35,834 bases of DNA from an uncultured Thiotrichales bacterium (GCA_903824965.1 CAIJYR010000124.1:1-35834), one strand, 5' to 3'. Counted from the first letter of the stretch, positions 13,071 to 29,871 are shown. Notes: generated from the sequence alone by a model not told the origin. Numbers and translations are program-made.

Positions 13071-13415
13071 ATGATGACCCTTCTTCAACAAGTAGAGGCC
13101 GAGCAGATGACTCGCCCCATTCCGGATTTCCGCCCAGGCGACACGGTGATCGTGCAGACCCGCGTCAAGGAAGGCGAGCGAGAGCGCCTACAGGCCTTTG
13201 AAGGGGTGGTGATTGCCCGCCGCAACCGTGGCCTTGGTTCTGCTTTCATTGTGCGCAAAATGTCCCATGGTGAGGGGGTCGAACGCACCTTCCAAACCTA
13301 CAGCCCAACGACGGCAGAGATCATCATCAAGCGCCGTGGTGCTGTACGCCGTGCCAAGCTGTATTATCTGCGCGAGCGGAGCGGTAAATCGGCACGTATC
13401 AAGGAAAAACTGTAA
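13071..13415 (+). CDS. rplS: 50S ribosomal protein L19
   Basis: Large-subunit protein at the 30S-50S interface, 114 residues, standard length. It starts [13 protein letters not shown] and contains [24 protein letters not shown] and [15 protein letters not shown]. The start at 13071 is backed by AGGGAG seven bases upstream; ATG 13074 is an alternative. The 119-base gap before it holds a hairpin. Last gene of the rpsP operon. Confidence 0.98.
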
Positions 13416-13455
13416 TCGTCATTCTGGGGCAGGATCACGCTCGGCAAGATCGGCG

Positions 13456-14502
13456 ATGACGACATTGACGTTGGTCATTCCCGGGCTGCTACGGAACACG
13501 CACGAAATAACAGAGCGTTTTCCCGCGCTAGAACGCCTATTCACCCGATCCGATCCACTGCCTGACGAGGGATCGGGGAGGGGTCTGGAGGCGTTGTTCT
13601 TCCGGCTTTTCGGTGTTCCAACCGAGGCATCGTTGCCGATTGCGGCGGTAACACACGCATTTGACAGCGCCGATCCGGTCGAATTAACGCAGGAGGGATG
13701 GATCCGCGCCGACCCTGTGTATTTGGAACCCAACCGATCCGGCATACGGTTGTTCGACCAGCGAGTGCTCACCCTCTCCCTGGACGAAGCGGAGCGCCTG
13801 GCCGCAGCACTCTCCACCGAAGAGCCTCCGACCTCGCAAGGGAACGGTCGTTTGAAGGTGCTGCATCCGACGCGGTGGTATCTACCACTGCCACTGTCTA
13901 GGGTAGACCGCATCCGCACGTCCGCTCTGTCGGTTGTGCACGGCCAGGACATTCGCGACCACCTGCCGCAGGGCGAAGACAGCAGGGCGTGGCGAAAGTG
14001 GCTCACCAGCAGCCAGATCCTACTCCACCAAAGCCCAATCAACACAGAGCGCGAAGCACGCGGCGCTTGGCCCGTCAACAGCGTGTGGCTTTGGGGTGAG
14101 GGATGCACTCCCACCGTCTCCAAGAATGGGTTTAGCCAAGTCTGGAGCGACGATCCCTTGGTCTTGGGGTTGGCCTGCCTTGCCGCGACACCCCACACAG
14201 CTACACCGACGAACGCCGAGGCTTGGCTCCGTCAGGCAGGGACACGGGATCTCATCGTCCTGCCCGATCCTGATGCGCTTGCACCCACAGAGGTTTCTGC
14301 GGGTCAGGATCAGACCTTGGGCCGTTTAGAGCAAGACTGGTTTGCACCTCTGCAAGAAGCGTTACAGACGGGTATGATCAAAAGCCTCACCCTGTACCCC
14401 TGCCCTGCCCCACCACGGTACATCACCGGATCCTGGTTGCGCCGTCGCTGGTGGCGACGTACCCGGCCATTGGCACATCGCGCTCCACCAACAGCACCTT
14501 GA
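13456..14502 (+). CDS. RpfE-type regulatory/phosphoglycerate-mutase-like protein
   Basis: A 348-residue cytoplasmic protein. Its start TLTLVIPGLLRNTHEI, the segments FDSADPVELTQ.. with IRADPVYLEPNR, and the motif PVNSVWLWGEG resemble the family annotated as regulatory protein RpfE or cofactor-independent phosphoglycerate-mutase-like in xanthomonads and betaproteobacteria, where it often neighbours recJ. I see no complete mutase active site, and the biochemical role of the family is not established. ATG 13456 is chosen because the family start begins there; the ribosome-binding site is weak. It lies 40 bases after rplS and could be co-transcribed. It is convergent with the folP fusion gene. 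Confidence 0.65.
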   Translation: MTTLTLVIPGLLRNTHEITERFPALERLFTRSDPLPDEGSGRGLEALFFRLFGVPTEASLPIAAVTHAFDSADPVELTQEGWIRADPVYLEPNRSGIRLFDQRVLTLSLDEAERLAAALSTEEPPTSQGNGRLKVLHPTRWYLPLPLSRVDRIRTSALSVVHGQDIRDHLPQGEDSRAWRKWLTSSQILLHQSPINTEREARGAWPVNSVWLWGEGCTPTVSKNGFSQVWSDDPLVLGLACLAATPHTATPTNAEAWLRQAGTRDLIVLPDPDALAPTEVSAGQDQTLGRLEQDWFAPLQEALQTGMIKSLTLYPCPAPPRYITGSWLRRRWWRRTRPLAHRAPPTAP

Positions 14503-14539: not shown

Positions 14540-16204
14540 TCACGGGCCACTGCGAACCAGACGAAACCCAACGTCGCGGTCACGGTAAGCGGGTGTACTG
14601 ATGTAGCGATTGGCTACACGAAGGTGACGCGCATCCTCACTCCAACTGCCACCACGAAAGACACGATTGGCCGTATTGTGGACGTCTGCGCACACGGCCT
14701 CGCTGCCATCCGCATAGTTTTTACTGTACGCAGAACAGGTCCACTGCCACACATTTCCCAATATGTCATACAAACCCCAAGGGTTTGGCGCAAAAGAACT
14801 CACCGGTGCAGTATAGATCCACGCATCCTTCCCTTCCGCCATGCCACCGCAACAGACATCCTTTCCGTAGTTCGCATACTCGTGACTGGCAGCATTGCCC
14901 CAATAATATGGTGTGGTCGTACCCGCCCGCGCCGCATATTCCCACTCTGCTTCGGTCGGGAGACGATACGGTTTTCCGGTCTTTAGGCTCAACCATTTTG
15001 CATAGTCCATCGCATCCAGCCAGCTTACATTGATCGCTGGACGGTTTTCTCCGCCCCAACTTTCGTCAGACGCGATGCGCCCATTGGTATCGTCGACAAA
15101 ACAATTGTATTCTGTAAAGGTGACGGCATACTTTCCGAGGGAGAAACGATCCACATGCACACGATACAGTGTCTCATCCTCAGCACGCCCCTGTTCCCCT
15201 GGAGGTGAACCCATCATAAAATCTCCACCCGGAATCGTCACCACCTCTGGTTCTACGGGGCAGGCGGCCAGGACAACGGTAGGTGCCATCCAAGACAACG
15301 CCAGCAACACTGCGCCTGTAGACAAAAACAGAGATTTCCATACGATCATCACCATTCCCCCCTGCTCCTGCGCTGCTGTACGCACAGCATGACCCACCCG
15401 CAGCATCTCAAGAGTGGCCCCAACATCGTGAACACGCAAAATACTGGCCCCTTGCCAAGCAGCGATCACAGCAAGCGCAAGACTTCCATAGAGGCGCTGC
15501 GCGGTCGGTATGTTTCCCAGCATGGATTTACGAGACAGCCCAACCAGGACAGGAAGACCCAGCCCGTGCACTAGGGTATCCAAATGATGCAAGAGAAGCT
15601 GGTTGTGTAGCAGGTTCTTTCCGAATCCGAAACCCGGATCAACGACCAAACGATCCCGGGAAATGCCTGCTTCCTCGCAAATACGCACACGCGCCGCCAA
15701 AAAATCCCTGACCTCGGCCACAACATCGTGATAATGGGGTTCACGTTGCATGGTGGAAGGCTCGCCTTGCATGTGCATGAGACAGACACGCGCCGAACCT
15801 GACGCAGCAATACCCAAGGCACCAGGAACACGCAAGGCACGCACATCATTGAGAAAGGTAGCTCCCGCGCCAAGTGCTGCCGCCATCACTTCTGGCTTGC
15901 TGGTATCTACCGAGAGGGTGATCGGAAAACGAACGCGCAACGCCTCCAGGACAGGCACCACGCGCGTGATCTCTTGTTCTGCAGAAACGGGCGTCGCACC
16001 AGGGCGTGTAGACTCGCCACCCACATCAATCATGTGGGCACCCTCTGCAACCATGCAAGCTGCGCGGTCTATCGCCGCCGCAAGCGTTTCTGTGCGTCCA
16101 CCGTCAAAGAAAGAGTCCGGGGTGACGTTCAAAATGCCCATCACCTGCGGGGTGGGATGCGGTGGTTCAATGCAACTGGGCTGGGCCCCCAATCCGTCCG
16201 CCAT
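14540..16204 (-). CDS. folP: Dihydropteroate synthase fused to a SUMF1-type domain
   Basis: A single open frame encodes 554 residues. Residues 1 to about 284 form a complete FolP, the folate enzyme joining p-aminobenzoate to pterin diphosphate. Motifs are [46 protein letters not shown] and [10 protein letters not shown]. There is no stop at its normal end. The frame runs into [20 protein letters not shown] and a signal-peptide-like stretch ending VVLAACP. A formylglycine-generating-enzyme (SUMF1) type domain follows: [44 protein letters not shown] and [16 protein letters not shown]. The catalytic cysteine pair of true FGE is absent in the GGSW region. ATG at 15355 has AGGAG upstream, so the second domain (14540-15355) might also be made alone and exported. 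The start at 16204 overlaps the ftsH end by 38 bases. The rlmE-ftsH-folP order matches E. coli; glmM, which follows there, is missing. Confidence 0.85.
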
Positions 16205-18089
16205 CGGAATGATCCTCTTCGTTAGCGTCCAGACTCGGTGGATTGATCGGGGCGGATTGATCACGCGGGGTATCGTCCCATCCCTCGGGGGGGCGTGGCG
16301 CTTTGCCGGACATGATATCGTCGATCTGTGTAGCATCGATGGTTTCGTACTTGATCAGTGCTTCCGCCATCAAATGGAGCTTGTCCATGTTTTCTGTAAG
16401 CAACTTTTCAGCACGCTGGAAATTGCGATCGACGATGCTCCGAATCTCTTTGTCAATGATGTGTGCTGTTTCATCCGATACCATTTTGTGTTGCGTGACC
16501 GAGTGCCCCAAGAAAACCTCGCCCTCATCCTCCATGTAAGTCAGAGGCCCTAGTTTGTCGGAGAACCCCCAACGAGTCACCATGCTGCGAGCAATATCGG
16601 TCGCACGCTGGATGTCATTACTGGCACCCGTGGTGACACATTCTGGGCCGAAGATGATTTTCTCCGCCAACCGACCCCCGAACAAACTCGCAATCTGGCT
16701 TTCTAATCGCTGCTTGCTAAAGCTATACCGATCTTCTTCGGGCAGAAACATCGTGACACCGAGAGCGCGACCACGCGGAATGATGCTCACCTTGTAGACT
16801 GGGTCATGTACCGGCACCAAGCGCCCAATGATGGCATGTCCCGATTCATGGTAAGCCGTGAGTTTTTTCTCTTCCTCGCTCATGACCATTGAACGGCGTT
16901 CGGCACCCATCATGATCTTGTCTTTCGCCTTCTCGAAGTCTTCCATTTCGACCAGGCGTTTGTTGGATCGTGCGGCGAACAGAGCCGCCTCGTTGACGAG
17001 GTTTGCAAGATCAGCCCCCGAAAAACCAGGGCTACCTCGTGCAATGATGCCCGGCAGGACGTCCTCCGAGAGCGGCACGCGCTTCATGTGGACACGCAAA
17101 ATTTGTTCGCGACCGCGCACATCTGGCAGTGGCACGACCACCTGGCGATCAAAACGACCCGGGCGTAACAGCGCAGGATCCAACACGTCTGGACGGTTCG
17201 TCGCAGCAATGACAATGACACCCTCGCTGCCCTCAAACCCATCCATCTCTACCAGGAGTTGGTTCAAGGTTTGCTCTCGCTCGTCATGACCACCGCCCAA
17301 CCCCGCCCCACGATGACGTCCCACCGCATCAATTTCATCGATGAAAATGATACACGGCGCATGTTTCTTGGCCTGCTCAAACATATCCCGCACGCGGGAA
17401 GCACCCACGCCTACGAACATCTCGACAAAATCGGAGCCAGAGATCGTGAAGAAAGGCACCTTTGCTTCCCCTGCAATGGCCTTGGCAAGCAGGGTTTTTC
17501 CTGTGCCGGGCGGCCCTACCATGAGCACACCGCGTGGGATTTTCCCACCCAATTTCTGAAACTTCCCGGGATCACGCAAAAACTCCACGAGTTCGCTGAC
17601 CTCATCCTTGGCTTCTTCGACCCCCGCAACGTCTGCAAACGTCACTTTGACCTGATCCTCGTTCAGCATCCGCGCACGACTTTTCCCAAACGAGAGAGCA
17701 CCACGTCCCCCCGCTCCCCCCTGCATCTGGCGCATGAAAAAAATCCACACACCAATGAGCAACAACATCGGGAACCAGGAAATAAACATCTGCATCAGGA
17801 TGCCCTGTTGCTCCGGAGGACGTGCATCGATGGCGACACCATTCGCGATCAAGTCGCCCATCAGTCCTGGATCCCATGGATTGTAGGTGTTGAAGCGATC
17901 TCCGCTCTGCAGGATGCCACGAATCGATCGCTCTTCTATGATCACCCGTTGGATTCGCCCCTGTTTCACATAGGCGATAAACTGCGAGTAATCTAGGTGT
18001 TGTGAAGAAGCCTGGTGGGATCCAAAATTATTGAACACCGACATCAGGACAACCGCGATCACCACCCAGAGAATGAGATTTCTTGCCAT
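16167..18089 (-). CDS. ftsH: ATP-dependent zinc metalloprotease FtsH
   Basis: Hexameric inner-membrane AAA+ protease that degrades misfolded membrane proteins and regulators such as LpxC and sigma-32. From ATG 18089 it has 640 residues. Features are an N-terminal membrane helix ([16 protein letters not shown]), a periplasmic domain, a second helix ([17 protein letters not shown]), Walker [20 protein letters not shown], and the zinc site HESGH at 414-418. His414 has the same number as in E. coli, which supports this start. A TTG at 18098 preceded by GAGGA is an alternative that adds three residues. The C-terminal tail is acidic and variable. It overlaps the folP start. Confidence 0.98.
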
Positions 18090-18912: not shown

Positions 18913-21900
18913 ATGCCAACCCAATTTCTCTTTTGTTTGCCTGCCCTTTGTGTCCTTGCCCTATTGCTGACAGGCCAAGCCGCACGCGCAGACACCGAAG
19001 CAGACAACTACCGTTGGGAGGGATGGAGCCTCCTGACCGATTTTCCCTCGGTGTCGGTACGATCGGGTGTGGAGGACAACAATCCGCCCTTTGCCCTCCT
19101 CACACAGGACGGTCGGGCAGATGGTTTTTCTGTTGAACTGTTACGCGCCGTGCTAGCCGCGATGGGACGAGAGGTACAATTCAGACCCGGCCCACGCACA
19201 ACCCTAGAGCAGTCCCTTAGTGAGGGAAATCTGCAAGTGCTGCCTGTCGTTGCGCGTACTCAGGATCGTAGCACCCTTTTTGATTTTAGCGTTCCTTATC
19301 TGCACATGCCGGGTACCATTGTGGTGCGCAAGGAAGACAATCGCATCCTGGGCGCGGCCGACCTCAAGGACAAAAAGGTCTTGGTCATGGCCGATGACGT
19401 GGGCGCACAGTACGTACGTCGACACCACCTCACGGATTTTGTGATCACCACCTCGTCCATTCCAAGTGCCTTGCGGCAACTGGCGAGCGGGATCGGCGAT
19501 GCTACGCTGTTACAGCAACTTACCGCGCAAGACCAGATCGATGCGTTGTCTCTGAACCTGAAAATCGTCGGACTGCCGCTCACCGACTACCAGGAATTGT
19601 GTTTTGCTGTTCGCAATGGGGACAAACGGCTTTTGGCGCTGTTGAACGAAGGTTTGTCCATTACCATGGCCAACGGCACGTTTGATCGCATTCGCCAAAA
19701 ATGGTTGATCCAACCATCCGAATATTATTCCACGTCCCAGTTTCTTTTGCCCCTCAGTGTTGCGCTTGTGGTGCTTTTGTTGGCGTGGAGCATTGGCTGG
19801 CTTTGGCAAGGTTCGTTGCGCCAGATGGTGAAGTCGCGCACCACGGAACTCTCAGAAGCCAATCGCCACCTGGCACAAGAGATGATCGAGCGTCGACACG
19901 CAGAAGACGCCATGCGTCGCCATGCCACAGAAATGGCCGATCTCTACGATCGTGCGCCCGTGGGCTATCATTCGCTGGATGCGGAAGGGGTCTTTGTGCG
20001 GATCAACGACACGGAATTGGCCTGGCTTGGCTATACCCGCGAAGAATTGTTGTGGCGTACACGCTTCCAAGATCTGTTGACCCTAGAAAGTGCCCTCACG
20101 TTTCAACGCAGTTTCCCCGATTTCAAGGAGCAGGGCTGGATCAAGGATCTGGAGTTTGACATGGTACGCAAGGATGGCAGCATCCTGCCGGTGCTTCTGA
20201 GCACGATGATTGTACGGGGGGATACCGGCGGCTACCTCATGGATCGCTCCACGGTCTATGACATTACCGAGCGACGTCGCACCGAGAATGCGTTGCGCCA
20301 ACGTGAGGCTGAACTGCGGGAAGCACAGCGCCTAGCCCAAGTGGGAAGCTGGGAGTGGGATCCCACGGAAGATGTCCTTCAGTGGTCTGCAGAACGCTAC
20401 CGCATTGCAGGCATCGAACCGATGTCGCAACCGCTGACTTACCGGAGTTTGGCACAGTTCTACACTTCTGAGAGTTTTGCACAGCTCTCGATCATAATGG
20501 AAGATGCCCTTCGATCGGGCGAGCCATACGATGGCGAGTTAGAAACCGTTCATCCCGATGGCTCGACTGGTTGGATCTACATTCGTGGTGAGGCACGGTC
20601 TGACGCACAGGGGCTGATCGTGGGTTTGCGGGGCACAGAGCAGGACATTACCCAACGCAAGCGCGTAGAAACCGAACTGCTCCGCCACCGCGAACACCTG
20701 GAATTGTTGGTGGCCGAACGGACGGCAGCACTACGAGAAAGCGAGTTGCGCTATCGTACCGTTGCCGACTTTACGGCAGATTGGGAAACCTGGCGTGGAG
20801 AAGATGGTCGTTACCGCTATGTTTCACCGGCAAGCGAGCACATCACTGGCTATCCAGCCGCTGCGTTCTTAGAAGACGCACGTCTTTTAGAGCGTATTAT
20901 TTATCCGGAGGATCGGGATCGTTTTGTGGTACACCTTGCGGAGCAGAGGGATCACGATGCCCCGATGACCATGGAGTTTCGAATCCAACGAGCGGATGGT
21001 CAGATTGCTTGGATCGAACACATTTGCCGAGCGGTCTATGATGATGCAGGGCGTTACGCCGGAAGCCGCGCCAGCAACCGCGACATTACCAAACGCAAGC
21101 AGGCAGAGGAAGCACTGCGGGAGGCGGATCAACGCAAGGATCAGTTTTTGGCCATCCTGGGGCACGAATTGCGTAACCCCTTGGCACCCATCCGCAATGC
21201 AGCCGAATTGCTGCACCAGGGTACCGCATTGACCTCCGATCAGGTACGTTGGGCAGCGGATTTGCTGAGTCGTCAGGTTTCCCACATCACCCGCTTGGTG
21301 GATGATCTCCTGGATGTCTCGCGCATCACCCGTGGGAAGGTGCAACTCCAAAGGATTCCGGTCGATCTGGCAGAAATCGCGCACCGTGCTTTGGAGCAAA
21401 CCCGACCGCTCTTGGAAGAGGCACGCCATCGGTTGCACACCAGTTTTCCGAGCCAACCCCTGACCGTGGAAGCCGATCCGGTGCGGCTTGCCCAAATTAT
21501 CAGCAACTTACTGACCAATACGGCCAAGTACACCGATCCGGGTGGCAAAGTGTGGCTGACGGTCGCTGAGGAAGCAGGACAGGCGGTTGTACAGGTCCGT
21601 GACACGGGCATTGGCATCCATCCTGAGTTGTTGCCCCGTATCTTCGACATGTTTATTCAAGAGGAGCAGGGTCTTGACCGTGCGCGGGGAGGGCTTGGCT
21701 TGGGCCTTACGCTTGCAAAGAGTCTGGTAGAAATGCACGGTGGCCAAATCGAAGCACAGAGTCCTGGTCGAGGCTTGGGGAGCACCTTTACGATGCGTTT
21801 ACCATTATGGAGGGTACACACGTTGGCAACTGTACTGCCTCCATCTACCAGCACAGAATCAAAATCTCATCAGATTCTGGTGGTAGATGACAATCCCGAT

Positions 21901-22218
21901 GTGGCGGAGTCTTTTGCGCTCTTGCTGGAAATTTGGGGACACCATGTTCACATTGTGTACGATGGCGAGTCGGCGGTCACGGCTTGTAGTCAAGTATGCC
22001 CAGACATTGTCTTTTTGGACATTGGTTTGCCTGGAATCGATGGCTATGAAACGGCACGCAGACTGCGGCAGACGGAAGCGGGACGTAGTGTCTACTTGGT
22101 AGCCGTGACAGGATACGGCCAAGAGGATGACATTGCCAAAGCGAAAGCGGCGGGTTTCGATACGCATTTGCTAAAACCTGTGGTGCCTGAGGCACTAGAG
22201 GCGTGCCTCGCCCGTTAA
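18913..22218 (+). CDS. Hybrid histidine kinase with periplasmic SBP domain, three PAS, REC
   Basis: A 1101-residue sensor. A signal peptide (1-26, ending QAARA) leads to a periplasmic solute-binding (SBP_bac_3) domain at about 45-265, of the BvgS/EvgS sensor type ([20 protein letters not shown]). A membrane helix (about 275-297) and a coiled coil follow, then three PAS/PAC units (about 340-455, 465-580, 620-735). Next come HisKA with His751 in [11 protein letters not shown], HATPase_c with [10 protein letters not shown] and DTGIGI, and a C-terminal receiver with Asp1036 in [14 protein letters not shown]. It lacks the HPt domain of BvgS. The next gene encodes an HPt domain only 20 bases downstream, so the two may form one phosphorelay. 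The ligand is unknown; related domains bind amino acids or small acids. No ribosome-binding site is obvious. Confidence 0.92.
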
Positions 22219-22237: not shown

Positions 22238-25003
22238 ATGCACATCATGATCGTCGAGGACTCTCGGACGCAGGCGCGTCAGTTGCAGTTCCTCATGGAG
22301 GAACAGGGCTGGACGGCGGAATGTTTTAGCACCGCCGAAGCAGCCCTGGATCATCTGGCCCAGCACAGACCCGATTTGATTGTCGTTGATTATCACCTGC
22401 CGCGTATGAACGGCGACGATCTCGCACGTATCCTGCGTATCAACGTGCAGACGCGGGATATTCCACTGGTCATGCTCACCGATGCGGTGGGCCGTGAGAC
22501 GGAACAACGGGGTCTGGAGAGCGGCGCGGATGCCTATGTCGCGAAGTCCGAAGACACCGATGTGCTCTTGATGCGGATTGGTTCCCTGCTCCGTCGTCAT
22601 TCGGAGCGCCCCCCGAGTATCGGAAGAGAATCCCCAAGCCTCCGTCGTTCACGCATCCTCATTGTGGACGATAGTCGCACCTTTCTCGAATACCTCCAGC
22701 ACCACTTAGAACAAGACGGCTACGAAGTCACCGCAGTGGAAAGCGGCGAGGCGGCCTTGGTCTGCGTCGAAAAGGAGGCGTTTGATTGCTTGATCATTGA
22801 TCTCTTCATGCCGGGCATCAGTGGTACGGAGCTTTGTTTTCAGCTCGATGGCCTACGACGGACGGGGAAGCAGTTGTTTCAAATCATCATGTTGACCGGA
22901 AGTGATTCCAAAGACAACATGATGCGGGGACTCGAAGCGGGCGCGGATGATTTTGTCGGGAAATCAGGCGACATTGAGATTCTACGTGCACGCATTCGTG
23001 CGCTGTTGCGGCGCAAAGTATTGCACGAAGAAAATCTGCGGATTACCAAAGAGTTCCACGCAAAAGAACTGGAGCTGGCCCAAGCGCATCGCGAACGCGA
23101 AGAAGCTGAAGTACGTGCAGCACTCGCCGAAGAATTGCAGGAAACCAACCGTGCACTCGTGCTTGCGAAAGACGCCGCCGAACAAGCGAGTCGTGCAAAA
23201 AGCAGTTTTGTGGCCAATATGAGCCACGAGATTCGCACACCAATGAATGCGGTCTTGGGCTTGATTTATCTGTTAGAAAAAACAGTATTGTCTCCGGTAC
23301 AACGCAATTATCTCGATAAAACGAGACAATCTGCCCAATCTCTGCTTGGTATCCTCAATGATATTCTGGATTTTTCCAAGGTAGAAGCGGGTCGTTTGGA
23401 TCTAGAAAAAGTCCCGTTTCCCTGTGATGAACTGCTCAAAGTGCTCAAGACGATCGCAACAACCAACGTGCGTGACAAGAACATTGCGATTGTGTTTGAG
23501 ATCCCCCCCACACTCCCAAGCATTTTGATCGGCGATGCACTCCGACTGCAGCAGGTATTGTTAAATCTCATCGGCAATGCGATCAAGTTCACAAAACAGG
23601 GCGAAGTTGTTTTGTCTATTAGAATCATTACCATCGGCAGCGATGAGATCCATTTGGGTTTTGCGGTACGTGACACGGGTATCGGTATTGATGCTACCCT
23701 GCAATCGATCATCTTTGATCCTTTCAGTCAGGCCGATTCTTCTATGACGCGGCGTTTTGGCGGGACGGGTCTTGGACTCGCGATTTGCCGCCAGTTGGTC
23801 GGCCTCATGGGGGGCGAACTCGCTGTGACGAGTGAACTCGGGCGGGGTAGCACCTTTACCTTTACTGCCCGCTTTGGGCTTCCGCACAACCAAGGTGTGC
23901 AATGCGTAGACACGGCCATTCCGACCCCGACCCCCGCACCCGCCGAAGCAACGCTTGCTAATCGCTCGTTCCTGCTGGTGGAGGACAACGAGATCAACCA
24001 GCTCGTCATGCGGTGTATTTTAGAGGGTGCGGGAGCCGTGGTGGAAATTGCCAACCACGGACGCGAGGCTGTCGATCGGCTTAGGGTGTCCCCTCAACCG
24101 TCGTTTGATGCGGTATTGATGGACATACAAATGCCTGAGATGGACGGGTATGAGGCGACAAAGGCCATTCGTGCGTTGGGCCTAACGATGTTACCCATTA
24201 TTGCCATGACCGCCAATGCGTTGCCTGCGGATCGTGAACGAGCACTGCAGGTGGGGATGAATGCCCACGTTGCAAAGCCCATTGAGGTGGCTGAGTTGTT
24301 CGCGGTGCTGTCGCGTCTTGCGCCCGCGCATGTCTCAGCCTCCCTCTCTGAGAAGACGCAGACCTCCTCCCCACAGGCCGAGGATCCCTGTCCTCGCTTT
24401 CCTACGATTGTTGGCATTGATGCTACTACCGCCGCCCTGAACCTCAATGGCAATGTCCGGTTGTTGGATATCTTGTTGGAGCGGTTTCTTGAGCAATTTA
24501 CAGAGGTCGCCCATCAAACCCGCGCTGATTTAGCATCAGGTCAACACACGGCCGCCCTCCTTCGGTTACACACATTGCGTGGTGTGGCGGGAAATCTCGC
24601 GGCACACCGTGTTGCTGAGGCGGCGGGTGCGCTAGAAACGGCCCTGAAGCATTCCCCCCAGGAGGAAGATGGGGATGGGTTCGCCCCTTTGTTGTTGGCA
24701 TTACACAACGCGCTGGACGAACTGGTTCATGCGATTCATGATCATCAGGCGAAACGAAAAGCAGAGAAAGCAACCACCACCCAGATGGTTCAGCCCAGTG
24801 TTGCCCGCATGAAGGCGTTTTTACAGACGCTGGACGAAAAGGATACCGAAGCGATGGATCTTTTTCACACGTTTTCGCCCTGGTATCGAGCACACTTTGG
24901 GACGAAGTCGGGAGAGCAACTGGAAAGTGCGATTCACCGTTTTGAATTTGAGCATGCTGCATCGTTGTTCCGCACGCAGGTACAGAAAGAGTTTGCATTA
25001 TGA
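22238..25003 (+). CDS. Hybrid histidine kinase REC-REC-HisKA-HATPase-REC-HPt
   Basis: A 921-residue protein with no membrane segment. Two receivers come first, with Asp51 in LIVVDYHLP and Asp188 in [13 protein letters not shown] coiled coil (about 255-315, [17 protein letters not shown]) connects to HisKA with His330 in [14 protein letters not shown] and HATPase_c ([26 protein letters not shown]). A third receiver has Asp629 in [12 protein letters not shown]. An HPt domain follows with His778 in [11 protein letters not shown], and then an 80-residue tail. With two input receivers it can be fed by another kinase, most simply the upstream gene product, and its HPt could pass phosphate to the REC-GGDEF proteins downstream. 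The gap to the upstream gene is 19 bases and to the next 13 bases, which indicates an operon. Confidence 0.92.
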
Positions 25004-25016
25004 GGAGGTTCTTATC

Positions 25017-27017
25017 ATGACTCAAGATTCTCTCCATGCTCTAAGAAAGCCCACGATTCTGGTCGTTGATGATGAACCGGCGAATATTCACGTATTGTCG
25101 GAGATTCTCAAGAAAGAGTATCGTGTTTTATTCTCCATGTCAGGAGAAGATGGCGTGCGAGTCGCAGAAATGCACAAACCGGATCTCATTCTTCTCGATG
25201 TGCATATGCCACACATTGATGGCTTCACGACCTGCATGCGACTCAAAGAAAATCCATCTTTGCGGGATGTGCCCGTGCTCTTTGTGACGACGCAGGGTGC
25301 CTTGGATGATGAAGTCAAGGGATTCGAGGTGGGTGCTGTTGACTACATCACGAAACCAATCCATGCAGCCACAGTGATCAAACGGATACAAAGTCATCTA
25401 AAAATCAAAGACCACTGGGATGCGCTGCAACACATGATAGTGGTAGACGGTTTGACGGAGATTGCAAACCGCCGTGGGTTTGACATTGCCTTTGATCGTG
25501 AATGGCGACGAGCAGTCCGAAAGAACAATCCTTTTTCTTTGATCATGGCAGATATTGATCACTTCAAAGCTTACAATGATCACTATGGACATACGGCGGG
25601 CGATCACTGCCTACGTGCCGTTGCCAAGATATTTGATGAACAGATGAAACACACAGGCAGTCTTGTGGCACGGTATGGCGGAGAGGAGATTGTGTGCCTC
25701 CTCCCAGACACAGATTCTGCGGGGGCGCTACAAGTCACAAAGCGATTACAAGCCGCTCTGGAAGCAGCAGCCATTCCTCATGCAGTGTCGCCGATTGCAA
25801 GTTGTATTACGCTCAGTTTTGGGATTGCGACGGCCATTGCAAGCGCCGGTGTCGAACCCAATGAACTGTTGTCTCTGGCAGATCGGCTCATGTACCAAGC
25901 AAAGACGACCGGAAAGAACCGATTTGTCATTGGTGTGTTGCAAACCTCTGCCGAACGTCATAGCAACCACAGCATAGAACAAGGAGATTCTCTCCACCAC
26001 CAGAGGTATGACACACCCGTATCGAACCGAAACGCGGAACTCTGGCAGTTGAAAGGATCCAAGGAAGCGCCTACCCTGCTCATTATTGATGACGAACTCA
26101 GCCAAATCGAACTGCTGCGCGATATTCTCGGAGACAGCTACCGGATTCTCTCTGCTTTGTCAGGATCCGATGGTGTGAGACTTGCGAGCTCCGTGACACC
26201 CGACCTCATTCTCCTGGATGTCGTGATGCCACACCAGAATGGTTTTGAGGTATGCCAGCAATGCAAAGAAGACCCATTTCTGAAAGACGTCCCTATTCTC
26301 TTTGTCACAGGAAGATCATCGGTTTATGATGAGGTACACGGATTTGAAGTAGGTGCGGTTGATTATGTCACGAAACCCTTACAGCCTCCGGTGGTGCGCA
26401 ACCGAGTCAAAAATCATCTAGAGCTAAAAATGCAGCGCGATGTTTTGCGGCACCTCGCGACAACGGATGGTTTGACGGGGATAGCGAACCGCCGTGGTTT
26501 TGATGAAACGCTTGTGCGTGAATGGCTTCGATCCGTTCGTAATTGTACGCCGATTTCGTTGATCATGGCGGATGTCGATCATTTTAAAGCTTACAATGAT
26601 CAATATGGCCATCTAGCGGGTGATGACTGTCTGCGTATCGTTGCCGGTGTTTTCCACCGACAGGTGCAACGACCTGGTGATTTGGTGGCGCGGTATGGGG
26701 GCGAAGAGATTGTGTGCGTACTGCCCGATACGGATGCTTCTGGTGCGTTACAAGTGACACAACGATTACAATCGAGCTTGGCAGCGTGCGCCATTCCTCA
26801 TAAAGCATCGCCCGTTTCGAACATCATTACACTCAGCTTCGGAATCGCAACGGCTACCCATGATCCATCGGAACAACAGTCTGTCAATGCAGAGGTTTCT
26901 TCCCACCAACAGGATGTACGAGGATTATTGCGCCAGGCCGATCGGTACCTGTATGAAGCAAAGAACGCGGGTAGAAATCAGATCAAGGCAGGTATTTTTA
27001 CACACTCCACGCCGTAG
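25017..27017 (+). CDS. Double REC-GGDEF diguanylate cyclase, gene 1
   Basis: A 666-residue response regulator with two complete REC-GGDEF modules in one chain. Asp61 and Asp401 are the phospho-acceptors (LILLDVHMPHIDG and LILLDVVMPHQNG). The cyclase signatures GGEE lie at 221-224 and 561-564. The module spacing is exactly 340 residues. Both modules keep DIDHFKAYND or DVDHFKAYND, needed for metal and GTP binding. Module 2 has an inhibitory I-site RPGD five residues before GGEE; in module 1 this is HTGS, so feedback inhibition there is probably lost. Both receivers keep the conserved Lys (ITKP, VTKP). The start is fixed by a strong GAGGAGG site seven bases upstream, right after the kinase stop. 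It makes c-di-GMP from two GTP; two cyclase domains in one chain could form the active dimer internally (inference). Confidence 0.93.
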   Translation: MTQDSLHALRKPTILVVDDEPANIHVLSEILKKEYRVLFSMSGEDGVRVAEMHKPDLILLDVHMPHIDGFTTCMRLKENPSLRDVPVLFVTTQGALDDEVKGFEVGAVDYITKPIHAATVIKRIQSHLKIKDHWDALQHMIVVDGLTEIANRRGFDIAFDREWRRAVRKNNPFSLIMADIDHFKAYNDHYGHTAGDHCLRAVAKIFDEQMKHTGSLVARYGGEEIVCLLPDTDSAGALQVTKRLQAALEAAAIPHAVSPIASCITLSFGIATAIASAGVEPNELLSLADRLMYQAKTTGKNRFVIGVLQTSAERHSNHSIEQGDSLHHQRYDTPVSNRNAELWQLKGSKEAPTLLIIDDELSQIELLRDILGDSYRILSALSGSDGVRLASSVTPDLILLDVVMPHQNGFEVCQQCKEDPFLKDVPILFVTGRSSVYDEVHGFEVGAVDYVTKPLQPPVVRNRVKNHLELKMQRDVLRHLATTDGLTGIANRRGFDETLVREWLRSVRNCTPISLIMADVDHFKAYNDQYGHLAGDDCLRIVAGVFHRQVQRPGDLVARYGGEEIVCVLPDTDASGALQVTQRLQSSLAACAIPHKASPVSNIITLSFGIATATHDPSEQQSVNAEVSSHQQDVRGLLRQADRYLYEAKNAGRNQIKAGIFTHSTP

Positions 27018-28980
27018 TACCGTTCTTTTTGGAGACAATAAAAGTGGATCCATGTTCTGTTCGTACACCAAACAAACCTACGGTACTTATTATCGACGAT
27101 GAGCCGAGCAATATTCATGTCTTATCAGAGATTCTGAAGGATGCGTATCGTGTTGTCTTTTCCATGTCGGGCGTAGATGGTATACAGGTTGCAGCAAAAA
27201 ACCAACCAGACATTATTTTGCTCGATGTCAACATGCCTCATATGGACGGCTTCCATACCTGCTTGCGATTGAAACAGCATCCAGCACTAAAAGACATTCC
27301 CGTGATCTTCGTCACGATGATGGGTGCTTTGGATGATGAGGTCAAGGGATTTGAAGTGGGTGCAGTCGACTATATCACACGACCTCTTCATGCGGTAACG
27401 GTGATCAAACGGATACAAACTCATTTGAGAATCAAGGATCACTGGCATGCGCTACAGGACATGATCTTGTTGGACGGGTTGACCGGACTTGCCAACCGTC
27501 GCGGTTTTGGAGTTGCGTTTGATCGTGAATGGCGACGTGCGGTTCGTAAGCATTATCCTTTTTCTTTGATCATGGCGGATATTGACCACTTTAAAGCCTA
27601 TAACGATCATTATGGGCATACGGCGGGCGACAATTGTCTTCGCATTGTGGCGGGCGTTTTCCGTCGACAAATGCAACGACCAAACGATCTGGCAGCACGG
27701 TACGGTGGTGAGGAAATTGTCTGTTTGCTTCCGGACACGGATGCAGCGGGTGCATACCAAGTCACCAAACGATTACAAGCGAGCTTGGCTGCGTCTTCGA
27801 TTCCCCATGCAGCATCACCGATTGCAAAAATCGTCACCATCAGTTTTGGCATTGCGACGGCAACAGCAGATGCTTGTATTGAACCAAACGATTTGTTGCA
27901 CTTTGCAGATCAGCTTTTGTACCAAGCGAAGGGCAGCGGCAAGAACCGATGGGTTGCGGGTGTACTCCAGCAACCAACAGGTTCTTCTGCTGAGAAAGAA
28001 TCCATTGCCGAAACAACCAACCTATCGCATCCTCTCACAACGGACGAGAAAAAGGCACTATGGCATTCTGGAAATACAATGGAATCGCCAACCATTCTGA
28101 TCATTGACAATGATCCAAACCAGATCGAAGTGCTTACAAACATGCTCGAACAACACTACCATATTCTTTCTGCGTTGTCAGGAGAAGATGGTTTAAAGAT
28201 TGCCGATGCAGTCACGCCCGATCTGATTCTCCTCGACATGATGACACCCCATACCAGTGGTTTCCAGGTGTGTCAACAATTCAAGGGGGATGCCTTTCTT
28301 AAAGAGATTCCTATTATCTTTGTCACGGGAATGACCTCTGTATACGATGAGGCACAAGGTTTTGAGGTGGGTGCTGTAGATTATATTACACGACCTTTCC
28401 AGCCTCCTGTGGTACGTAATCGCGTCAAGAATCACCTCGAACTGAAGATGCAGCGTGATATCTTGCGACGCCTTGCCACCACCGACAGCTTGACTGGGAT
28501 TGTCAACCGCCGTGGTTTTGACGAATCACTAGCGCGTGAATGGTTTCGATCGATACGAAACCAAAGCCCGATTTCATTGATTATGGCAGACATTGATTGC
28601 TTCAAGGCATACAATGATCACTGTGGTCATCTCGCAGGGGATGAGTGTTTACATACCATTGCAAGCGTCTTGCATCGCCAGATGCAACGGCCCGGGGATT
28701 TGGCTGCACGGTATGGTGGAGAGGAAATGGTTTGTTTACTGCCCGATACGGGCGAAGCAGGCGCACTGCAAGTGACCCAGCGACTACAAGCGAGTTTGGC
28801 GCTTTGCGCCATTCCCCATCCAGCCTCGCCAGTGGCAAAGACCGTGACCCTTAGTTTTGGAATTGCGACTGCGACGAATTTCCATGCAGCATCTGGTTCC
28901 TTTGAGGCTCTTCTACAATTGGCCGATCAGTGTCTCTACGAAGCAAAAAATGCGGGTAGAAACCAAGTGAAGACTGCTTT
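25050..28980 (+). repeat. Four diverged direct repeats of a REC-GGDEF module
   Basis: The same roughly 0.9-1.0-kb module occurs four times in tandem: about 25050-25960, 26070-27000, 27075-27970 and 28085-28975. Conserved points line up. Phospho-acceptor Asp codons lie at 25197, 26217, 27224 and 28235. GGEE codons start at 25677, 26697, 27704 and 28715. DNA identity is high near the DxDxFKAYND segment. Modules 1 and 3 resemble each other (DDEVKGFEVGAVDY), as do 2 and 4 (VVRNRVKNHLELKMQRD). This shows an internal duplication first and a whole-gene duplication later. Confidence 0.9.
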
Positions 28981-28993
28981 GCTTACCCAATAA
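27044..28993 (+). CDS. Double REC-GGDEF diguanylate cyclase, gene 2
   Basis: A 649-residue paralogue of the preceding gene with the same REC-GGDEF-REC-GGDEF order. Phospho-acceptors are Asp61 and Asp398, GGEE motifs lie at 221-224 and 558-561, and I-sites RPND and RPGD are intact in both modules. Unlike gene 1, both receivers have Arg instead of the conserved signalling Lys (ITRP twice). The second receiver also has IDNDP where IDDEP is usual, so phosphorylation response is probably altered. In module 2 the DIDHFKAYND segment reads DIDCFKAYND, and GGEE is followed by Met. GTG 27044 is preferred, with GGAG nine bases upstream; TTG 27029 is an alternative. It lies 26 bases after gene 1. Whether both modules are enzymatically active cannot be told from sequence. 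Confidence 0.92.
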   Translation: MDPCSVRTPNKPTVLIIDDEPSNIHVLSEILKDAYRVVFSMSGVDGIQVAAKNQPDIILLDVNMPHMDGFHTCLRLKQHPALKDIPVIFVTMMGALDDEVKGFEVGAVDYITRPLHAVTVIKRIQTHLRIKDHWHALQDMILLDGLTGLANRRGFGVAFDREWRRAVRKHYPFSLIMADIDHFKAYNDHYGHTAGDNCLRIVAGVFRRQMQRPNDLAARYGGEEIVCLLPDTDAAGAYQVTKRLQASLAASSIPHAASPIAKIVTISFGIATATADACIEPNDLLHFADQLLYQAKGSGKNRWVAGVLQQPTGSSAEKESIAETTNLSHPLTTDEKKALWHSGNTMESPTILIIDNDPNQIEVLTNMLEQHYHILSALSGEDGLKIADAVTPDLILLDMMTPHTSGFQVCQQFKGDAFLKEIPIIFVTGMTSVYDEAQGFEVGAVDYITRPFQPPVVRNRVKNHLELKMQRDILRRLATTDSLTGIVNRRGFDESLAREWFRSIRNQSPISLIMADIDCFKAYNDHCGHLAGDECLHTIASVLHRQMQRPGDLAARYGGEEMVCLLPDTGEAGALQVTQRLQASLALCAIPHPASPVAKTVTLSFGIATATNFHAASGSFEALLQLADQCLYEAKNAGRNQVKTALLTQ

Positions 28994-29016: not shown

Positions 29017-29871
29017 GTGAAATTTACCGTTTCGGCATTCCGCGCTTGGCAAAACAAAAAGATTACCCTGTTGGGGATGTCTGGAGTTGGAAAAACCCGA
29101 TTATCGGCTACGTTACGTCGGCAGAACTGGTTCCATTACTCTGGGGATTATCGTATTGGATCACGCTACCTGAATGAGGATATTCTTGATATCATCAAAC
29201 AACAGGCTATGCAGGTGCCGTTTTTGCGCGATTTACTGCGCAATGACTGGATCTCGATTTGCAATAACATCCGTGTCGATGATTTGGGGCCTGTATTGTC
29301 TTTCGTTGGGAAGCTTGGTAATCCAGAACTCGGTGGATTGAGCTTGGCTGAATTTGTGCGTCGCCAAGCCATGTACCGCCAGGCTGAAATTGCGGCCATG
29401 CAGGATGTGCCCCTTTTTGTTCGCAAGGCACAGGAGGTCTATGGTTATCAGCACTTTGTCAATGATGTGGGGGGATCTCTGTGCGAATTGGAGTCACCCC
29501 CTGTGATTGATCTGCTCGCGCAGCATACGCTCATTCTCTACGTCAAAGTGACGACCCCCTCAGAGGAACAAGCACTCATTCAGCGTGCACAATCCGATCC
29601 AAAACCACTGTATTACCGTCCAGATTTTCTGACCGAACACTTGCCTATCTACCTTCGTGAGCATGGTTTAGAATACACTGCTGAAATTGATCCAAACGAT
29701 TTTACCCGTTGGATTTTCCCGCGGCTGTTCCACGCTCGGCTTCCGCGCTATGAAGCCATTGCTGAACCTTTTGGGTACACCGTTACTTCTCACGAGGTGG
29801 GTACAGTGTGCACGGAAAGCGATTTCCTCACACTGGTTGAGAATGCCATTGCACGCCAGATGGCGCATTAG
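29017..29871 (+). CDS. P-loop ATPase/kinase-like protein next to metA
   Basis: A 284-residue cytoplasmic protein with a Walker A motif GMSGVGKT at about residues 19-26 (ITLLGMSGVGKTRLSATL). Beyond that I cannot assign a standard family; later segments such as FVNDVGGSLCELESPPVIDLL and LYVKVTTPSEEQALI suggest a nucleoside-kinase-like fold. Genes of this type next to metA-type acyltransferases have been annotated only as ATPase. The GTG start has AGGA seven bases upstream. It follows the second cyclase gene by 23 bases and precedes metA by 18, so it is probably co-transcribed with metA and may support methionine synthesis in an unknown way. Confidence 0.75.
   Translation: MKFTVSAFRAWQNKKITLLGMSGVGKTRLSATLRRQNWFHYSGDYRIGSRYLNEDILDIIKQQAMQVPFLRDLLRNDWISICNNIRVDDLGPVLSFVGKLGNPELGGLSLAEFVRRQAMYRQAEIAAMQDVPLFVRKAQEVYGYQHFVNDVGGSLCELESPPVIDLLAQHTLILYVKVTTPSEEQALIQRAQSDPKPLYYRPDFLTEHLPIYLREHGLEYTAEIDPNDFTRWIFPRLFHARLPRYEAIAEPFGYTVTSHEVGTVCTESDFLTLVENAIARQMAH

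Follow-up and report, generated by a model that had tools for sequence, protein, structure and literature searches.

The window analysed here (the whole 35,834-nt stretch of DNA, from an uncultured Thiotrichales bacterium) holds two adjoining genes that each encode a receiver and a cyclase domain twice over, in the order REC-GGDEF-REC-GGDEF. Each module is predicted to be a switchable enzyme that synthesises c-di-GMP. The locus raises the question of whether such a pair is genuine, how its four modules arose, and whether they act as equals. An initial sequence-only reading had proposed that each chain could be a covalent dimer with two phosphorylation inputs, working as an AND-gate.

The gene pair and its relatives

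Gene 1 (25017..27017) begins with ATG and specifies 666 aa, while gene 2 (27044..28993) specifies 649 aa from a GTG, which was preferred over the mechanically assigned TTG at 27029 because a GGAG lies about 9 nt upstream of it; both genes, and all features of them given below, are on the plus strand. Pfam searches bore out the domain order, with two Response_reg and two GGDEF matches per gene (E-values for the two genes of 1e-92 and 1e-94 for GGDEF, and of 6e-50 and 1e-46 for REC). The key residues had also been numbered correctly, exactly so for gene 1 (Asp61, GGEE221, Asp401 and GGEE561) and, provided that counting starts at the GTG at 27044, for gene 2 (61, 221, 398 and 558).

The two paralogues are 67.6% identical in amino acids and 45% identical at third codon positions, and their longest identical run is 22 nt; these values fit neither chance nor an assembly duplicate. 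The lower conservation of third positions than of protein indicates that the pair is under purifying selection. An equal pair, in the same order, follows the same two kinase genes and precedes the same P-loop gene in a second genome of the genus, and this recurrence at the same locus excludes the assembly artefact that had been named as one outcome that would refute the sequence-only reading. The window genome is a draft of 265 contigs, but no support was found for an assembly or sequencing artefact, and such an origin is extremely improbable for paralogues only 68% identical that occur in another genome.

The P-loop protein (GMSGVGKT, 29017-29871), directly downstream of the cyclase genes and conserved in the related species, had no Pfam match, nor had a 429 aa open frame at 13213-14502. 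A further feature of the window is a 598 aa frame (14540-16336, minus strand) that joins a dihydropteroate synthase domain to an FGE-sulfatase-like domain; in same-genus and same-family genomes, each half has its best match in a frame of its own.

The four modules are of the kind found in WspR and in DgcR of Leptospira biflexa, each having a REC and then a GGDEF domain. They resemble these proteins in module order, in the REC-to-DxLT spacing (n+5 of DgcR), in the Asp-Arg interface pair and in GGEE, and three of the four also have the RxxD inhibitory site. DgcR and WspR, however, are single REC-GGDEF proteins, whereas here each chain has two modules and two such genes adjoin; the window proteins also have GGEE[I/M] in place of GGEEF, Arg in place of Lys in the gene 2 receivers, and two types of stalk. 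PleD (REC-REC'-GGDEF) was the best PDB match by both sequence and fold search and, like the window proteins, has more than one receiver per chain, but its two adjacent receivers precede a single cyclase domain, while in the order REC-GGDEF-REC-GGDEF each receiver has a cyclase domain of its own.

The layout appears to be rare. The 3.2 Mb window genome gave 26 GGDEF matches and, among the matches listed, no other two lie in one open frame. Searches of 56 relatives and of 369 genomes from the class and 399 from the phylum, with few candidates scored in each, yielded no further tandem-module gene, nor did a seeded scan that took one genome for each of 84,980 species (best 80 of 476 kept) yield any beyond the genus. 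That scan used exact peptides with few candidates scored per genome, and phyla beyond that of the window were covered by it only, so absence elsewhere is not proven. The plasmid matches listed contained no tandem-module gene, those covering >90% of the query being single modules matched twice. Elsewhere in the phylum, junction-spanning matches had internal stop codons, and one (L132) was a cyclase gene beside a separate receiver-bearing gene. A literature search found no paper naming the REC-GGDEF-REC-GGDEF layout, and the earlier remark that no described system is known to have this four-module layout is consistent with the literature searched and the genomes sampled. Within the genomes searched, the gene pair is a genuine variant of a well-known family and is so far confined to this genus.

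Origin of the four modules

In a tree of the modules from two genes in each of two species, the four first modules formed one clade (support 100/100) and the four second modules another (100/99), and a grouping of the two gene 1 modules was rejected (AU p 7e-6). The pairing of modules 1 and 3, and of 2 and 4, is that given by the sequence-only reading, whose order of events, an intragenic duplication followed by duplication of the gene, agrees with this topology. Since loss of the inhibitory site is common to both copies of gene 1 module 1, and an Asp-to-Asn change to both receivers of gene 2 module 2, the gene duplication predates the species split.

A sister genus carries, at the same locus and directly downstream of an orthologous REC-REC-HK-REC-REC-HPt kinase, two separate hemerythrin-like-REC-GGDEF genes. 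These differ from the window pair in having one module per gene, an extra N-terminal hemerythrin-like region, and stalks that have not diverged between the genes (76% identical). The N-terminal region of the first gene falls just below the curated cut-off of PF01814 and that of the second had no PF01814 match; by eye, the first (L102 7134-8555) retains near-canonical hemerythrin metal ligands and the second (L102 8654-10054) has lost several. The first gene also has His for Arg in the inhibitory site. The two group with each other and jointly form the sister clade to all eight tandem modules, a pattern suggesting that the locus was amplified repeatedly, the sister-genus pair having probably duplicated independently. 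Fusion of two such genes is unlikely as the source of modules 1 and 2, as the sister genes cluster with each other (98-99% bootstrap) and alternative topologies are 14-23 log units worse (AU p 0.0015-0.055).

A search for gene conversion gave mixed site patterns (77 orthologue, 72 within-species and 52 cross) and no clear tracts. In gene 1 module 1 of the same-genus genome (L101 8074-10095), the C-terminal third of the module, in the C-terminal part of GGDEF1, is closer to the sister-genus copies than to its own paralogues (72/86 support), possibly reflecting retained ancestry or recombination.

Differences between the modules

In all four GGDEF domains of the window, GGEE and the catalytic Asp, Asn and Lys are conserved, with the residues for binding metal and GTP. 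The motif reads GGEEI in both domains of gene 1 (25443..25922 and 26457..26981) and in the first of gene 2 (27470..27949), and GGEEM in the second (28475..28966); across all ten modules at the locus, the fifth residue is I, L or M, while it is F in 64 of 67 other REC-GGDEF modules. The primary inhibitory site is retained in GGDEF2 of gene 1 (RPGD) and in both GGDEF domains of gene 2 (RPND and RPGD), and has been lost from module 1 of gene 1 in both species (HTGS in the window, HTGG in the relative). The R446 equivalent is replaced by K in module-1-type GGDEF domains, that of gene 1 included.

Each receiver of the window keeps the phospho-acceptor Asp and the Thr, but the full set, with acid pocket and Lys, is present only in gene 1 (REC1, 25056..25391, with Asp61 and Lys113; REC2, 26076..26411, with Asp401 and Lys453). 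In gene 2, REC1 (27083..27415) keeps Asp61 with Arg for Lys, and REC2 (28091..28429) is partly degenerate: it has Asp398 and the same Lys-to-Arg change, and in both species it has lost the second acid-pocket Asp (DD to DN) and the Met of the MP motif (MP to TP). The change to Arg affects six of the eight tandem-gene receivers, namely both of window gene 2 and all four of the related species. Of 192 distinct receiver domains in the loci compared, 179 have Lys, and none but those six has Arg. As the K109R variant of CheY can be phosphorylated but is not activated, the substitution may weaken signal transmission.

The sharpest difference between the module types lies in the alpha5/stalk helix. 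Diguanylate cyclases need to dimerise to work. In DgcR this helix is the dimer coiled coil, whose native state uses the a and d positions and whose activated state uses a and e (PMC8041772). Every 29-residue stretch was scanned for differences between module types, with 20,000 column shuffles; the stalk was not preselected, though it had earlier been noticed by eye. Residues 115-143 were the most type-specific, with identity of 0.79 within and 0.25 between types, a difference of 0.54 compared with at most 0.23 for non-overlapping stretches, and none of the 20,000 shuffles matched the stalk (permutation p 5e-5). A count made before the scan had placed 9 of 14 fixed differences between modules 1 and 2 in alpha4-beta5-alpha5 and the stalk.

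The DgcR register could be transferred with exact spacing, gene 1 residue n+5 corresponding to DgcR residue n, which places a at 130/137, d at 133/140 and e at 134/141 (PMC8041772). With this register, a slippery a-d-e heptad stalk ending at -3 from DxLT is present at identical spacing in all modules. The module-1 stalk (25359..25445 in gene 1; 27386..27472 in gene 2) has I130/L137 at a, H133/M140 at d and W134/I141 at e, and the last pair gives it more hydrophobic active-register positions than module 2. The module-2 stalk (26379..26465 in gene 1, RNRVKNHLELKMQRD; 28397..28483 in gene 2) is of ancestral-like type, with L/L at a, Q and L or I at d, and R/A at e, and resembles that of the sister genus. 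Position g129 carries K or R in module 1 but E in module 2, so that a module-2 homodimer keeps E129-R134' bridges while a mixed pair would oppose K/R129 and R134. By this crude argument, the g129-e'134 charges modestly favour like-with-like pairing between chains over pairing of modules 1 and 2 within a chain. An evolved heterodimer of modules 1 and 2 is equally expected to give the observed pattern of stalk divergence. Taken at the level of residues, these changes indicate that the modules are not equivalent and that pairing specificity and a division of labour have probably evolved.

Signalling context and possible modes of action

Two hybrid kinase genes lie directly upstream of the cyclases, in the same direction and with small gaps. 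Hybrid kinase 1 (18913..22218, plus strand) combines an SBP_bac_3 sensor and PAS domains with HisKA-HATPase and a C-terminal REC, and has a 78% identical orthologue in the same-genus genome. Hybrid kinase 2 (22238..25003, plus strand), the last kinase gene before the cyclases, has the order REC-REC-HisKA-HATPase-REC-HPt with no sensor domain found by Pfam, and its stop lies 13 nt ahead of gene 1. Orthologues of hybrid kinase 2 precede the cyclases in two relatives (L101 4843-8070; L102 3881-7135), and the window protein lacks a receiver of about 130 aa that both carry between HATPase and the final REC. The cyclase genes are probably phosphorelay output regulators, their proximity to the kinases being what points to the partnership.

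The reading favoured here, tentatively and with a little less than an even chance of being right as a whole, treats each module as a DgcR/WspR-type REC-stalk-GGDEF unit with intact catalytic residues. Phosphoryl groups from either kinase would reach the HPt of hybrid kinase 2 and pass on to the four receivers. The module-1 stalk would have changed coherently after the intragenic duplication, with the gene duplication following, and two chains would pair in parallel, each module meeting its counterpart in the other chain, so that a chain dimer would hold two stacked cyclase dimers. With hydrophobic e positions (W134 and I141) and, in gene 1, no product-inhibition site, module 1 is predicted to be biased to the active register and, in gene 1, also free of feedback. 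Module 2, with its ancestral slippery stalk (Q and L at d, R and A at e) and inhibitory site, is predicted to be switched by phosphorylation and limited by feedback. Gene 2, with its altered receivers, would probably be less phospho-responsive. That the stalks pair orthogonally, each chain holding one feedback-free, active-biased cyclase and one phosphorylation-switched, feedback-limited cyclase, with the Arg receivers still signalling, is rather unlikely.

The covalent dimer of the sequence-only reading, in which a chain's own two modules pair in parallel as a DgcR-like pseudo-dimer, is somewhat unlikely. Here the stalk changes would mark an asymmetric heteromeric coiled coil, and a single chain would be a complete enzyme with two phosphorylation inputs. 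The inter-module linker, of about 40-47 residues, variable in sequence and similar in length in all four genes, would permit such pairing, and the stalk types are size-complementary at position 141 (I against A) and kept as a pair in both species. Against this, K/R129 of module 1 would face R134 of module 2, the helices that have diverged are the pairing helices themselves, and their simple g-e' charges favour like with like. The AlphaFold2 model of gene 1 (mean pLDDT 85.7, pTM 0.68) has well-folded modules, as expected, and its pTM counts for the covalent dimer; however, inter-module geometry is not readable from the predicted chain, nor from its superposition on PleD, the nearest fold together with WspR and DgcR, which has a whole-chain rmsd of 12-20 Å. 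The invariant alignment columns fall in the second module, so the first was probably poorly covered in the AlphaFold2 input. The AND-gate is not supported, as it requires equal functional receivers on both modules and gene 2 does not fit: the receiver of its second module is degenerate in both species, making two equal inputs unlikely, and the Lys-to-Arg changes, like the missing RxxD of gene 1 module 1, add to the inequality. There was no evidence for an AND relation within gene 1.

Dosage and drift could also account for the locus, the extra modules only raising c-di-GMP output, the stalk divergence being functionally near-meaningless, and gene 2 with its altered receivers representing largely phosphorylation-independent copies. 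Loss of the Lys in six of eight receivers, the further changes in module 2 of gene 2, and the recurrent duplication of modules here in two genera are in keeping with that explanation. It is nevertheless unlikely, as every module keeps its catalytic residues, and the stalks of each type, compared across paralogues and species, are better conserved than the greater part of the protein, which is not expected from drift.

The class III adenylyl cyclases, with their C1-C2 tandem, provide an analogy, and no more than that, for two dimer-forming cyclase domains of one chain that became unequal; their regulation is unrelated, and no loss of a catalytic half-site was seen here. Fused modules whose stalks have diverged between positions amount to a natural experiment on partner discrimination and on how register bias sets activity. 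The locus offers natural paired stalk sequences for the coiled-coil switch model, together with a set of receivers in which Lys has become Arg, and its diverged pairing helices and altered receivers are of more interest than the AND-gate originally proposed.
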